In this document: positions 2,903 through 6,868 of the stretch, one piece after another
Numbering within the stretch: position 1 is the first letter of the stretch
Layout: every line of letters begins with the position of its first letter
Assembly (NCBI RefSeq): GCF_013111185.1
Contig: NZ_WVRE01000002.1
Span: forward strand, 124,001-188,000
Direction: 5' to 3'
Source: Ruegeria sp. HKCCD7303
GTDB lineage: Bacteria > Pseudomonadota > Alphaproteobacteria > Rhodobacterales > Rhodobacteraceae
DNA: 64,000 bases
Made by a program: the position numbers and the translations under genes
Notes under the pieces: generated by a model
Databases searched by the model: none
Told to the model about the DNA's origin: nothing
Seen by the model: only the letters and a program-made list of their open reading frames with translations

Positions 2903-3218
2903 GGCCTTCCACGTATTGCTGTGTCTTCGAATGAAACCCATTGAACACCGAGGCAAAAACCGGCTGCACAAAAAGTAATCGTACAGAATAACCCCAAGCA
3001 ACGTATCCCCACGCCGCGTTGCAGCTTCGACGCTAGCGCCGCAAAGCTCAATGGCAATAGGCTTTATGCGAAAAAGACTGATCTTTATCTGGAAAAACAA
3101 ACCCTATGGCAATTATGGCGCAAAAGGCTCGTGTAGGTTGAGAGCGTGCTGCCTGACCAACCAAAGGTGTGCCCCCGCCCGGAAAGACGCTAAAACGTCA
3201 GCGGGCGGGGAACAGATT
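2903..3218. other. Intergenic region between the XRE regulator and ilvH
   Basis: This 316-base gap has no credible gene. It should hold the promoter of the minus-strand XRE regulator. It also contains GCAACG and CGTTGC, six-base inverted arms 13 bases apart near 2999-3023, and the ilvH 3' hairpin annotated separately. Confidence 0.5.
3173..3210 (-). terminator. Hairpin downstream of ilvH
   Basis: CCCCGCCCG (3173-3181) pairs perfectly with CGGGCGGGG (3202-3210). A second inner stem, GACG/CGTC, lies at 3186-3199. It starts 8 bases past the ilvH stop on the minus strand. No U-tract follows, so it may act as a mRNA 3'-end stabiliser or a weak terminator. Confidence 0.5.
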
Positions 3219-3779
3219 TTAGTCGCCGCGCAGCAAGGCTGCGACACCTGTACGGGCGATCTCGACCAGACCCAATGGGCGCATAAGGTCCGCAAAGGCA
3301 TCGATCTTGTCCGGTGCACCGGTGATTTCGAAGATGAACGAATTCAGAGTGCTGTCGACCACATTGGCGCGGAAAATATCGGCCAGCCGCAGGGCCTCGA
3401 CCCGCTTGTCGCCTTCACCCACGACCTTGATGATAGCCAGTTCGCGCTCGACCGAAGGGCCTTCGACAGTAAGGTCATGCACGTCGTGCACGGTTACAAT
3501 TCGGCCCAGCTGCGCCTTGATCTGCTCAATAACCTGGGGGGTCCCGGTGGTGACGATGGTGATGCGGCTGAGGTGGCCTGTGTGATCAACTTCGGCCACG
3601 GTCAGGCTTTCGATGTTATAACCGCGCCCCGAGAACAATCCGATCACACGTGCCAGAACGCCAGGTTCGTTCTCGACCAACACCGCTATCGTGTGACGTT
3701 CCTGCACGTCCGAAAAGGTGGGTCGTAGGTTATAGGCCGAATGGCGGGTGGCACCTTTTTTGATATGTAGGGCAGACAT
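3219..3779 (-). CDS. ilvH: Acetolactate synthase small (regulatory) subunit
   Basis: Regulatory subunit of acetohydroxyacid synthase, the first common step of valine, leucine and isoleucine synthesis; it confers activity and valine feedback on the large subunit. It has 186 residues. An N-terminal ACT domain is clear (about residues 28-100: HTIAVLVENEPGVLARVIGLF, then RGYNIESLTVAE), followed by the ALS_ss C-terminal domain. It lies 69 bases downstream of ilvI on the same strand, so the two are very probably co-transcribed and both under the attenuator upstream of ilvI. The family is also called ilvN. Confidence 0.95.
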   Translation of the reverse strand: MSALHIKKGATRHSAYNLRPTFSDVQERHTIAVLVENEPGVLARVIGLFSGRGYNIESLTVAEVDHTGHLSRITIVTTGTPQVIEQIKAQLGRIVTVHDVHDLTVEGPSVERELAIIKVVGEGDKRVEALRLADIFRANVVDSTLNSFIFEITGAPDKIDAFADLMRPLGLVEIARTGVAALLRGD

Positions 3780-3848
3780 TTATGTCCCTTTCATCATCCT
3801 TGATATATCGGGCGCGGCAAGGCGCCCGACCAAATCCGTCGAATTTTG

Positions 3849-5600
3849 TTAAACCAGAACCGAACCTTTGGAATCGATCACGCCCTGCGTTTCTGCTTCG
3901 CCCAGAAGCATCTCGTTATGGGCCTTGCCCGATGGGATCATTGGGAAGCAGTTTTCGTGCTTTTCAACCAGACAGTCGAAGATCACCGGACCGTCATAGT
4001 TGATCATCTCCATGATCGCGTCGTCCAGATCGGCAGGATCGGAACACAGGATGCCCTTTGCTCCGAACGCTTCGGCGAGTTTAACGAAATCAGGCAGGGC
4101 TTCGGACCAGCTGTGTGAATAGCGTTCGCCATGCAGCAGTTCCTGCCACTGACGGACCATGCCAAGGCGTTCATTGTTCAGGATGAACTGCTTCACGGGC
4201 AGACGGTATTGCGCGGCGGTGCCCATTTCCTGCATGTTCATCAGCCAAGACGCCTCACCAGCCACGTTGATCACCAATGCATCTGGATGCGCCATCTGCA
4301 CGCCGATAGAGGCGGGGAAGCCATAGCCCATCGTGCCCAGGCCACCCGAGGTCATCCAGCGGTTGGGGTCTTCGAACCCAAGGTACTGAGCCGCCCACAT
4401 CTGGTGTTGGCCCACTTCGGTGGTGATGTAGCGATCGTGCTTTTTTGTCAGCTCTTCAAGGCGTTGCAGCGCGTATTGCGGTTTGATGGATTTTTCGCTG
4501 TTGGCATATGCAAGGCAGTTGATCTTGCGCCATTCCGCGATCTGGTTTTGCCACTGCTTCACGTTCGCAGCATCCGTCTTGCGACCGCGAGACTTCCAGA
4601 TCTTCAGAATGTCTTCCAGTACATGCGCCACGTCACCGACAATGGGTATGTCCACACGGATTACCTTGTTGATCGAGGACGGATCGATGTCGATATGCGC
4701 CTTTTTCGAGTTCGGCGAAAACGCATCGATGCGGCCGGTGATCCGGTCGTCGAAACGTGCGCCGATATTGATCATCAGATCGCAGTCATGCATCGCCAAA
4801 TTGGCCTCGTAGAGACCATGCATGCCCAACATTCCAAGCCAGTTCTCGCCCGAGGCTGGGTAAGCGCCCAGACCCATCAGGGTCGAGGTGATCGGGATAC
4901 CAGTCGCGTCCACCAGTTCACGCAGCAACTGGCTGGCTGCAGGGCCAGAGTTGATGACACCGCCACCGGTATAAAAGACCGGTTTCTTAGCGGTTTCCAT
5001 GGCGGCAACCAGTTCCGTGATCTCTTCCAGGTCGCCTTTCAAAACCGGTTGGTAATGCGACGTTGAAGGCTTGGGGCTGGTGTACTCGCCCGAGGCAAAC
5101 TGCACGTCCTTGGGAATGTCGATCAACACAGGACCGGGACGGCCCGAGGTGGCGACGTGAAAGGCTTCGTGCATCGTTTCCGCCAGCGAATCCGTGTCTT
5201 TAACCAACCAGTTATGCTTGGTGCAGGGGCGGGTGATGCCAACAGTGTCAGCCTCTTGAAACGCGTCTGAACCGATCATGAAGGTCGGAACCTGACCCGT
5301 CAGAACAACCAGCGGGATCGAATCCAACAATGCGTCGGTCAGGCCGGTGACAGCGTTGGTCGCGCCAGGGCCGGACGTTACAAGCGCAACGCCGGGTTTG
5401 CCGGTCGACCGGGCATAGCCTTCGGCGGCATGGATTGCACCTTGTTCGTGACGCACCAGAATGTGGCGAATGTCGTTTTGCAGAAAGATCTCATCATAGA
5501 TCGGTAGGACGGCGCCACCGGGGTATCCGAATACCGTGTCCACGCCCTGATCCTTGAGGGCCTGAACCACCATCTTTGCGCCGGTCATCTCACGTGTCAT
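3849..5600 (-). CDS. ilvI: Acetolactate synthase large (catalytic) subunit
   Basis: ThDP-dependent catalytic subunit of acetohydroxyacid synthase (583 residues). It condenses two pyruvates, or pyruvate with 2-oxobutyrate. The N-terminal ThDP domain carries the catalytic glutamate in VRHEQGAIHAAEGYARSTG. The central FAD/DHS-like domain follows, then the C-terminal ThDP-binding domain around VAGEASWLMNMQE, where the usual GDGS reads GEAS. The frame continues 24 codons upstream through the attenuator terminator. The ATG at 5600 (MTREMTGAKMVVQALKDQG) has GGAGC upstream and is the proper start. Also called ilvB. Confidence 0.95.
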   Translation of the reverse strand: MTREMTGAKMVVQALKDQGVDTVFGYPGGAVLPIYDEIFLQNDIRHILVRHEQGAIHAAEGYARSTGKPGVALVTSGPGATNAVTGLTDALLDSIPLVVLTGQVPTFMIGSDAFQEADTVGITRPCTKHNWLVKDTDSLAETMHEAFHVATSGRPGPVLIDIPKDVQFASGEYTSPKPSTSHYQPVLKGDLEEITELVAAMETAKKPVFYTGGGVINSGPAASQLLRELVDATGIPITSTLMGLGAYPASGENWLGMLGMHGLYEANLAMHDCDLMINIGARFDDRITGRIDAFSPNSKKAHIDIDPSSINKVIRVDIPIVGDVAHVLEDILKIWKSRGRKTDAANVKQWQNQIAEWRKINCLAYANSEKSIKPQYALQRLEELTKKHDRYITTEVGQHQMWAAQYLGFEDPNRWMTSGGLGTMGYGFPASIGVQMAHPDALVINVAGEASWLMNMQEMGTAAQYRLPVKQFILNNERLGMVRQWQELLHGERYSHSWSEALPDFVKLAEAFGAKGILCSDPADLDDAIMEMINYDGPVIFDCLVEKHENCFPMIPSGKAHNEMLLGEAETQGVIDSKGSVLV

Positions 5601-5640
5601 CTGCTTTGCTCCGTTCGCGACATGTGTCTTGCGTTTTGCC

Positions 5641-5668
5641 AAAAAAAAGCCCCCGATTTTTCGGAGGC
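5641..5668 (-). terminator. Intrinsic terminator of the ilv attenuator
   Basis: Read on the minus strand, GCCTCCGA, a four-A loop and TCGGGGGC form an 8-base-pair stem with one G-U pair. Eight uridines follow directly. It sits 40 bases before the ilvI start and 26 bases after the leader-peptide stop, the classic position for a transcription attenuator. Confidence 0.85.
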
Positions 5669-5709
5669 GCATGGGTTCGATTATGGTTTTCCGTTACCGG
5701 CCCATGCGC
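5667..5709 (-). promoter_or_regulatory. Antiterminator stem of the ilv attenuator
   Basis: GCGCATGGG within the leader-peptide codons (5701-5709) is a perfect nine-base complement of CCCATGCGC (5667-5675). The downstream arm shares its last two bases with the terminator stem, so the two hairpins compete. A ribosome paused on the Leu-Val-Val-Ile-Val codons would leave this stem free to form, while one reaching the stop codon would cover its first arm. Confidence 0.7.
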
Positions 5710-5741
5710 GTTTTTCCTACGATTACGACTAGCGCTTTCAT
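5694..5741 (-). CDS. ilvL: ilv operon leader peptide
   Basis: Fifteen-residue leader peptide MKALVVIVGKTRMGR. Five consecutive residues (LVVIV) are the branched-chain amino acids made by the downstream pathway. It is preceded by AAGAAGGAG ten bases before the ATG. It follows a minus-strand promoter and is followed by the antiterminator and terminator. Low charged tRNA for Leu, Val or Ile would stall the ribosome on these codons and allow read-through into ilvI-ilvH. The symbol is used by analogy with other ilv leader peptides. It is far too short for routine gene callers. Confidence 0.85.
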   Translation of the reverse strand: MKALVVIVGKTRMGR

Positions 5742-5770
5742 CGCCAGAGGCTCCTTCTTTGCGTGCAGGG

Positions 5771-5799
5771 ACATTATGGTCGGGGGGAAGGGGCGTCAA
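5771..5799 (-). promoter_or_regulatory. Predicted ilv promoter
   Basis: On the minus strand, TTGACG (5794-5799) is followed after 17 bases by TAATGT (5771-5776); CATAAT is an alternative -10 box with 15-base spacing. Transcription would start near 5763, giving a leader of about 120 nucleotides up to the attenuator terminator. Confidence 0.6.
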
Positions 5800-6022
5800 C
5801 AGGCAATTGCACCAATTTTCTATCTTGGCGGCGGTTATTTGCGACATTTTATTGCGCAGATTGCCGCATGTTGGGAATTTCCGGGAAAACGATGTTCATT
5901 TCACTGGTTTTTTAGACGCATGTGAGGGTCCAAAAGCGTCAGGTCGATGTCTGAAACTGGCATGATCTGCCTATTTGACTGCGTCACGCTGACCCTGTGG
6001 GCGCGCATGAAGGAGGCGGAGA

Positions 6023-6868
6023 ATGCTGCAAGACCTGTTGGACCTTGGACGGTATCCGATCGATCGCCCGGATTCGCCCGCGTATGTTCGATTGATCGAA
6101 GATTTGAGGCGGGAACTAGATCAAGATGGATGCGCGGTTCTGCCGGGTTTTGTCCATGAAAAGGGCATCGCTCTTTTGACTGAAGAGGCCGATGCCGTTG
6201 CGCCCAATGCGCATCGCTCTTTCAGCCGTACGAACCCGTATTTCACCAAGGACGACCCGCGGTTTGGCATCGGTCATCCTATCCGACAGTTCTATGATCG
6301 TTCGAATGCCTTTGTTCCAGCGGATAATTTTCCGCAATCGGGGCCTTTGCGGAGTATATATGAGTTTGAACCCTTTCTGCCGTTCGTTCGTGATGCCTTG
6401 AATGAGCCTGCAGAGCGTTTTTTCCGTTATGATGACCCGCTGGCCGATGTGATCATTAACGTGGTCGAGGAAGGGCAGGGCTTTCCATGGCATTTCGATA
6501 CGAACAATTACACGGTGACACTGGCCATTCAGAACGGTGAGGAAGGGGGCGCGTTCGAGTACGCGCCAAATCTTCGCACAACGGAAGACGAAAACTTTGC
6601 TGAGGTCGCCGCAGTTTTGAACGGGGATATGACGTGCGTCCATCAGTTAGAGCTTCAGCCCGGTGATTTACAGATTTTCAAGGGGCGATATTCGCTTCAC
6701 CGGGTAGCGCCGGTGACGGGGCCGCGCCGCCGGTATGTCGGTATCTTTTCATTTGTCGAAACCGAAGGCATGTGCGGCGGTATCGAACGGACTGAGCAAC
6801 TGTATGGACGGGTTCTGCCACACCATTACGAACGCGCGGGGCTACGCAAAGATCAATTACTGGATTGA
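6023..6868 (+). CDS. 2OG-Fe(II) oxygenase, HalD/BesD-like
   Basis: Non-haem iron, 2-oxoglutarate-dependent oxygenase of 281 residues. The iron ligands appear to be His157 and Asp159 (WHFDTNNYTVT) and His226 (YSLHRVAPV), with arginines at 235-237 for 2-oxoglutarate. GGAFEYAPNLR and the overall layout recall the HalD/BesD family of amino-acid halogenases. Those halogenases replace the aspartate with glycine or alanine; this protein keeps it, which argues for hydroxylation. Start supported by AAGGAGG. It is followed after 46 bases by a VOC-family gene. Substrate unknown; the family assignment is from memory. Confidence 0.8.
   Translation: MLQDLLDLGRYPIDRPDSPAYVRLIEDLRRELDQDGCAVLPGFVHEKGIALLTEEADAVAPNAHRSFSRTNPYFTKDDPRFGIGHPIRQFYDRSNAFVPADNFPQSGPLRSIYEFEPFLPFVRDALNEPAERFFRYDDPLADVIINVVEEGQGFPWHFDTNNYTVTLAIQNGEEGGAFEYAPNLRTTEDENFAEVAAVLNGDMTCVHQLELQPGDLQIFKGRYSLHRVAPVTGPRRRYVGIFSFVETEGMCGGIERTEQLYGRVLPHHYERAGLRKDQLLD

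Follow-up and report, generated by a model that had tools for sequence, protein, structure and literature searches.

The 64,000-nucleotide stretch of the Ruegeria sp. HKCCD7303 genome that was analysed (the window) carries, 5' of ilvI on the minus strand, an RNA leader that very probably switches on the synthesis of valine, leucine and isoleucine when these amino acids are scarce. Judged from sequence comparison, the leader is highly likely to be a ribosome-mediated transcription attenuator of ilvIH. The initial annotation had reported an attenuator at this place and had interpreted it as leader-peptide attenuation; the observation was confirmed and the interpretation is supported by the comparisons given here. 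The parts of the leader, their conservation, spacing and possible pairings were established as described below, and coordinates are collected in Table 1.

Table 1. Coordinates and basis of the features described in the text. Positions are those of the window; the last row gives locus coordinates.
Feature	Position	Strand	Basis or remark
Whole element, promoter-like site to U tract	5799-5641	-	5' of ilvI and ilvH
-35 box TTGACG	5794..5799	-	By-eye reading; TTGACN-N17-TANNNT family recurrence
-10 box TAATGT, 17 nt from -35	5771..5776	-	By-eye reading, not scan
Shine-Dalgarno AAGGAG, 9 nt 5' of leader ATG	5751..5756	-	Sequence reading
Leader peptide ORF MKALVVIVGKTRMGR, 15 codons and stop TAA	5694..5741	-	Translation; conservation
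Control codons CTA GTC GTA ATC GTA (LVVIV)	5718..5732	-	Translation; CTA/GTA enrichment
Antiterminator 5' arm (arm 1) GCGCATGGG, within last codons (..G CGC ATG GG.)	5701..5709	-	Inverted repeat
Small hairpin CCG-GTAA-CGG, stop codon in loop	5691..5700	-	Both-side changes, 3/3 pairs
Antiterminator 3' arm (arm 2) CCCATGCGC	5667..5675	-	Inverted repeat
Terminator stem-loop GCCTCCGA-AAAA-TCGGGGGC	5649..5668	-	Shares 5668-5667 with antiterminator
U tract, T8	5641..5648	-	Directly after terminator
ilvI, acetolactate synthase large subunit (regulated gene)	3849..5600	-	NF006581, 1140 bits
ilvH/ilvN, acetolactate synthase small subunit	3219..3779	-	NF008864, 224.7 bits
Atu_C8 loci with Val-containing leader peptide	L232 1501-1620, L274 757-876, L275 832-952, L276 766-885		

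Most of the parts claimed earlier were recovered unchanged, namely the 15-codon leader peptide with LVVIV in a row, its Shine-Dalgarno sequence, the perfect nine-base antiterminator, the eight-base-pair terminator with eight Us and the two-base overlap of the two stems. The antiterminator arms are paired at 9/9 positions and lie 25 nt apart; the window has no other pair of this kind, and 100 shuffles gave none. The terminator stem has 8 pairs, 6 of them G-C, and a loop of 4. No clear separate 1:2 protector or pause hairpin was seen in the fold of the window leader, and an Rfam scan of the window gave no riboswitch or T-box over cut-off, the only hit being a tRNA elsewhere. The claimed promoter stood as a by-eye reading with family recurrence and did not stand in a promoter scan of positions 3000-6100, which returned no sigma-70-type site by its rule. 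TTGACN-N17-TANNNT was found 5' of the leader in 86/117 family regions, 54-59 nt before the start codon in 73 of those 86; about 0.0008 are expected per stretch (mononucleotide shuffles). The control codons match the pathway 3' of the leader, where acetolactate synthase subunits for the synthesis of the same amino acids are encoded.

Using blastn, the element was found in the window's genome and in the other 36 of the genus (37/37 in all), and in 0/24 genomes of other families. The window's genome was searched with R1, a covariance model of family ilvI leaders that includes the window element among its own sequences; the element scored E 1e-22 and the next match E 0.66, and this whole-genome search gave no convincing second copy. 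Eighty named loci were found through IlvI, whose best named matches belong to Ruegeria. Of these loci, 75 have a short ORF containing a run of four or more I/L/V, 76 the ..RMG.-stop ending (HMG counted) and 77 the exact core of both arms; one of the misses, L096, shows 104 bases only. In one genome of the family (G084) two ilvI genes each carry a copy of the element (C49:87741-87850 and C24:54106-54211).

A family sample chosen independently of the leader was made from ilvI upstream regions of 120/149 genomes, one per other genus; those left out were the window's own genome, a second member of its genus and 27 more. An ORF with an I/L/V run of at least five was found in 81/120 genera, against 3/120 on the reverse strand and 4/600 dinucleotide shuffles, and a run of at least four in 98/120. 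Both hairpin arms were found in 89/120 genera and in 0/600 dinucleotide shuffles. The leader codons, on whose conservation in relatives the initial annotation had made its reading depend, are therefore conserved. A chance hairpin and terminator was ruled out by the genome search, the 120-genus counts and the window shuffles.

A permissive search placed an intrinsic terminator between leader ORF and gene in 116/120 relatives. The four without a terminator were left unscored, giving an anatomy set of 117 regions, window included, in which overlaps were searched from -8 nt on. Between the last control codon and arm 1 lie 7 nt in 43 of these and 8 nt in 44; arm 2 overlaps the terminator by 2 nt in 48 and by 3 nt in 50. 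With a 7-8 nt gap in 87/117 and a 2-3 nt overlap in 98/117, the geometry fits ribosome-mediated attenuation.

Codons, residues and folds were counted in 103 leaders filtered for an R-M-G-like motif. I, L and V were all present in 86 of them. Among 136 Leu control codons CTA made up 38%, and among 267 Val control codons GTA made up 56%; the corresponding shares in 37 window ORFs were 3% and 8%, the leaders coming from many genera and the reference ORFs from one genome's window. The codon preceding CGC-ATG encoded 13 different amino acids, and its third base was G in 101/103; this G pairs with C at the terminator foot. Such a fixed third base within a variable codon argues for selection on the RNA. 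Peptide-level selection for RMGR was accordingly rejected as the sole cause of arm conservation, as was also indicated by the transporter leaders described below, which end otherwise.

Covariation was scored in an alignment of 99 rows (A1), restricted to leaders with an R-M-G-like motif and cleared of near-duplicates, so that the conservation seen in it is conditional. Its 18 arm columns were 91-99/99 identical. Both-side changes were found at 2/10 pairs of the main helix, 3/3 of the stop-codon hairpin (CCG-GUAA-CGG) and 4/8 of the terminator. Main helix and stop hairpin together scored above every one of 500 shuffles by all five measures used, and 1/500 shuffles was as high as the terminator in both-side count, with shuffles that ignore relatedness. 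A control with partners slid by +1 gave 13 both-side-changed cells, against 10 for the true pairing; covariation of the main helix is weak because the arms vary so little. In three loci of a second alignment (L249, L251 and L252 of A2) arm 2 (CCCATGCGCC) is fixed, arm 1 is changed and the pairing is broken mid-helix, so arm 2 may have a second role.

From this layout we infer ribosome positions, read-through and a response to amino acids. With Leu, Val and Ile sufficient, the ribosome would reach the stop codon, which ends 7 nt past arm 1. A ribosome covers about 12 nt beyond its A site. At the stop codon it would cover arm 1 and leave arm 2 free, the full terminator would form, and RNA polymerase would halt in the U tract. 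With charged tRNA for CTA, GTC/GTA or ATC scarce, the ribosome would stall on LVVIV, and the 8-nt gap would keep arm 1 largely exposed, ready to pair with arm 2 upon its emergence. The antiterminator would then take 2 bases (3 in many relatives) of the terminator foot beside the U tract, and ilvIH would be read through. In intrinsic terminators, loss of the foot beside the U tract should hurt termination most. The overlap looks too small for the whole switch, and the direct adjacency of the hairpins, through stacking, steric or kinetic effects, probably contributes as well.

The 103 motif-filtered leaders were folded with the ribosome-covered stretch blocked. With the ribosome stalled at the first, middle or last control codon the antiterminator formed in 87, 94 and 79 of 103, and with the ribosome at the stop codon in 0/103, the latter by construction of the blocking. 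In the same stalled states all three terminator-foot pairs were complete in 41/103, 20/103 and 52/103 leaders, respectively; they were complete in 85/103 with the ribosome at the stop codon and in 25/103 without a ribosome. Ribosome-free RNA favoured the antiterminator in 88/103, and given this preference an untranslated leader might read through. In these models the direction is right and the exclusion is leaky: with 2-3 shared bases both hairpins would often coexist.

Fourteen scored ilvI leaders lack an R-M-G-like motif, and 12 were folded (L196 and L222 were left out). In nine of these 12 (L170, L174, L176, L195, L219, L220, L224, L230 and L231) a hairpin abuts the terminator with no overlap. 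The nine hairpins are mostly of different sequence (e.g. GCGCAGUCGC/GCGACUGCGC in L176), start 1-11 nt past the last control codon and end 0-4 nt from the terminator. L223 was ambiguous, and L164 and L221 are laid out differently. Base sharing is thus hardly the sole principle of the switch, in which stacking, a steric block or kinetics may act. The initial annotation had cautioned that the overlap is small and that the switch may rely on stacking or kinetics; that caution proved well placed, both in the overlap lengths and in the stalled-ribosome folds.

The module was also found before genes other than ilvI. R1, built without any of the 23 transporter loci described here, was searched against 240 genomes of the class and matched in nine genomes outside the family. 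The five strongest matches (E 1e-16 to 4e-6) lie before a Bcr/CflA-type MFS gene, not ilvI. The longest ORF downstream of the four weakest (L254-L257, E 6e-4 to 0.007) is no such transporter, and these we take to be chance terminator-like matches. A second covariance model (R2), made from 12 transporter and 6 ilvI leaders, matched in 17/385 class genomes at E<=0.001, of which five were family members with ilvI. The other 12, from 10 other families, have a Bcr/CflA-type gene downstream in 12/12 cases; five had been used to build R2 and seven were independent. Within the window's family R2 matched in 128/149 genomes at E<=1e-4, the match being at ilvI in 125. Contig comparison placed five family matches away from ilvI, four of them (L306-L309) before a transporter; the fifth (L310, E 1e-5) has no transporter behind it. 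E-values of these home-made models are rough, and genes outside the window were assigned from the nearest ORF downstream with a single profile library.

Eleven of 30 plasmid records that contain a related transporter were examined. The element was present in seven (R1 E 9e-18 to 4e-4) and absent from four (L272, L273, L277 and L278). Conjugative plasmids of Roseobacter denitrificans, Phaeobacter piscinae and Leisingera caerulea are among the carriers, and the other replicons are from Rhizobium etli, R. lusitanum, Phyllobacterium and Burkholderia cenocepacia. On the conjugative plasmids, which come from three Roseobacter-group genera, a Val-type leader with an MFS gene lies at L269 873-980, L270 870-978 and L271 870-978. 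TIGR00710 (Bcr/CflA efflux) was the best model for 22/23 transporter proteins at E<=1e-50, 17 of them over cut-off; the remaining protein (L275) had no profile match at E<=1e-50, but is annotated Bcr/CflA. A tree of the transporters did not place the 22 carriers on one side of a branch (2 changes), and it says little because only 3 non-carriers were included.

With start codons of the 23 transporter leaders chosen by hand, Val accounted for 75% (78/104) of I/L/V at leader residues 2-12, against 52% (277/530) at ilvI. I, L and V were all present in 3/23, well below the proportion at ilvI. The terminator overlap was 3-6 nt in 16/23 transporter leaders and 0 in L308, four loci (L232, L274, L275 and L276) have a 7-nt gap between hairpin and terminator, and L303 and L306 gave a different hairpin as the best. 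Covariation in the 23 leaders was no better than in shuffles (85.4% paired against 85.1%), and pairing in this set therefore rests on the layout. The natural overlaps, at 2-6 nt, 0 and negative, offer a ready series for asking how little base sharing attenuators need.

Upstream of ilvI in seven class genomes with transporter-type or Atu_C8-like matches, no significant R1 match was found (best E 0.49). At the ilvI of one of these seven genomes, which is outside the family (L262, in G347; see also L233), an I/L/V leader (MSLLIVPCAPNEGLA) is accompanied by GC-rich arms of another sequence. Atu_C8 matches the L262 leader at 32 bits, below cut-off.

Atu_C8 (Rfam RF02502, 'Rhizobiales sRNA') matches the window element at 25.4 bits (E 0.005 in a 321-base search), below the gathering score of 50, and matches L232, L274, L275 and L276 at 97-112 bits. 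At these four loci it resembles the window in having a leader peptide, identical GCGCATGGG/CCCATGCGC arms and a terminator, and differs in lying before Bcr/CflA-type genes and in having the 7-nt gap in place of the overlap. Here Atu_C8 is probably a leader under attenuation rather than a free sRNA, and the shared module would give this Rfam family a role. A TPP riboswitch takes the place of the element in two homologues, L272 and L273, on Agrobacterium pAt2 and a Mesorhizobium plasmid (824-940 each), hinting that these 'multidrug efflux' MFS genes encode a thiamine-related transporter and that proteins of this 'efflux' family can have metabolic roles.

These results allow a wider reading, which we put forward tentatively and consider possible but, taken jointly, rather unlikely to hold in every part. 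The GCGCAUGGG hairpin, the stop-codon mini-hairpin and the abutting terminator would form a portable antitermination module, conserved in sequence and common to two genes. It would serve ilvI in Rhodobacteraceae, reading Leu, Val and Ile, and a Bcr/CflA-type transporter in Alphaproteobacteria and at least one Burkholderia, reading mainly Val. The transporter would act in branched-chain amino-acid metabolism and would not be a drug pump, Atu_C8 being its attenuated leader. The hairpin would stop termination partly without base sharing, for example by blocking the terminator at the polymerase exit. Sharing of the module suggests that, in some marine and soil bacteria, 'multidrug efflux' genes respond to the availability of valine.

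The near-invariance of the two antiterminator arms and of RMGR would also be accounted for if the leader served chiefly to supply a small RNA or peptide acting in trans, with attenuation secondary, for which rnTrpL/peTrpL of Sinorhizobium meliloti is the model. The strongly conserved arm columns are common to another gene, Atu_C8 is filed as an sRNA in Rfam, and trans functions are reported for the trp leader peptide (PMC7298713). However, the transporter leaders keep most of the geometry with a different peptide (RMVR, RRVR, RLDR and RPGR endings), and the codon before R-M-G varies with its third base constant; we regard this explanation as improbable. Somewhat less likely still is that the I/L/V run serves for nascent-chain or antibiotic arrest and does not read tRNA charging. 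Hydrophobic arrest motifs are found in erm leaders. Arrest is most plausible for the copies before the transporter, which belongs to the Bcr/CflA 'efflux' family and whose leaders have VVV or longer in 16/23. At ilvI, by contrast, most leaders contain all three residues, their order varies and the codons are rare in the window, so amino-acid identity and codon choice seem important, not a fixed peptide. That the leader stretch is coding, with ilvI beginning at ATG 5672 within arm 2 (in frame with ilvI and open, a 607-aa ORF), is very improbable and was rejected on conservation, since what is conserved 5' of ATG 5600 is a leader, a hairpin and a terminator, the loops differing in length; a GGAG of its own precedes ATG 5600, which we take as the ilvI start. 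Gene callers may nevertheless put the start at ATG 5672 (minus strand).

Attenuation by the ribosome, the preferred reading, was compared with known systems by description. Leader-peptide control of ilv operons is established, Alphaproteobacteria included, and the principle is not new; a review names attenuation as the main mode in Gram-negatives (PMC6123439). Searches of the open-access literature found no publication on an ilvI leader of Rhodobacterales, and none on a leader peptide that precedes transporters of this type (the name Bcr/CflA being unsearchable). The ilvI switch is very probably ordinary attenuation, its leader now documented family-wide; sharing of the module between ilvI and the transporter may be less expected. 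In the same order, uORFC-8-2 before cysS is a predicted ribosome-mediated attenuator (PMC8632094), which differs from the window element in its cysteine codons and its gene. The Corynebacterium ilvBNC uORF (the ilvB-II motif; PMC10272879) is, like the window leader, rich in branched-chain codons, with a terminator stem before an acetolactate synthase operon, but belongs to another phylum. In the alphaproteobacterium S. meliloti an 'ilvIH cis regulatory' element lies before ilvIH (cited in PMC2573895 to the attenuation survey of Vitreschak 2004). The attenuator of Caulobacter crescentus ilvL-ilvBN (ilvIH) (Tarleton 1994, as cited in PMC4117421), also in an alphaproteobacterium, has a leader with tandem Ile/Val codons and a terminator before the acetolactate synthase operon. 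The window element is a sequence-conserved variant of such known attenuators.
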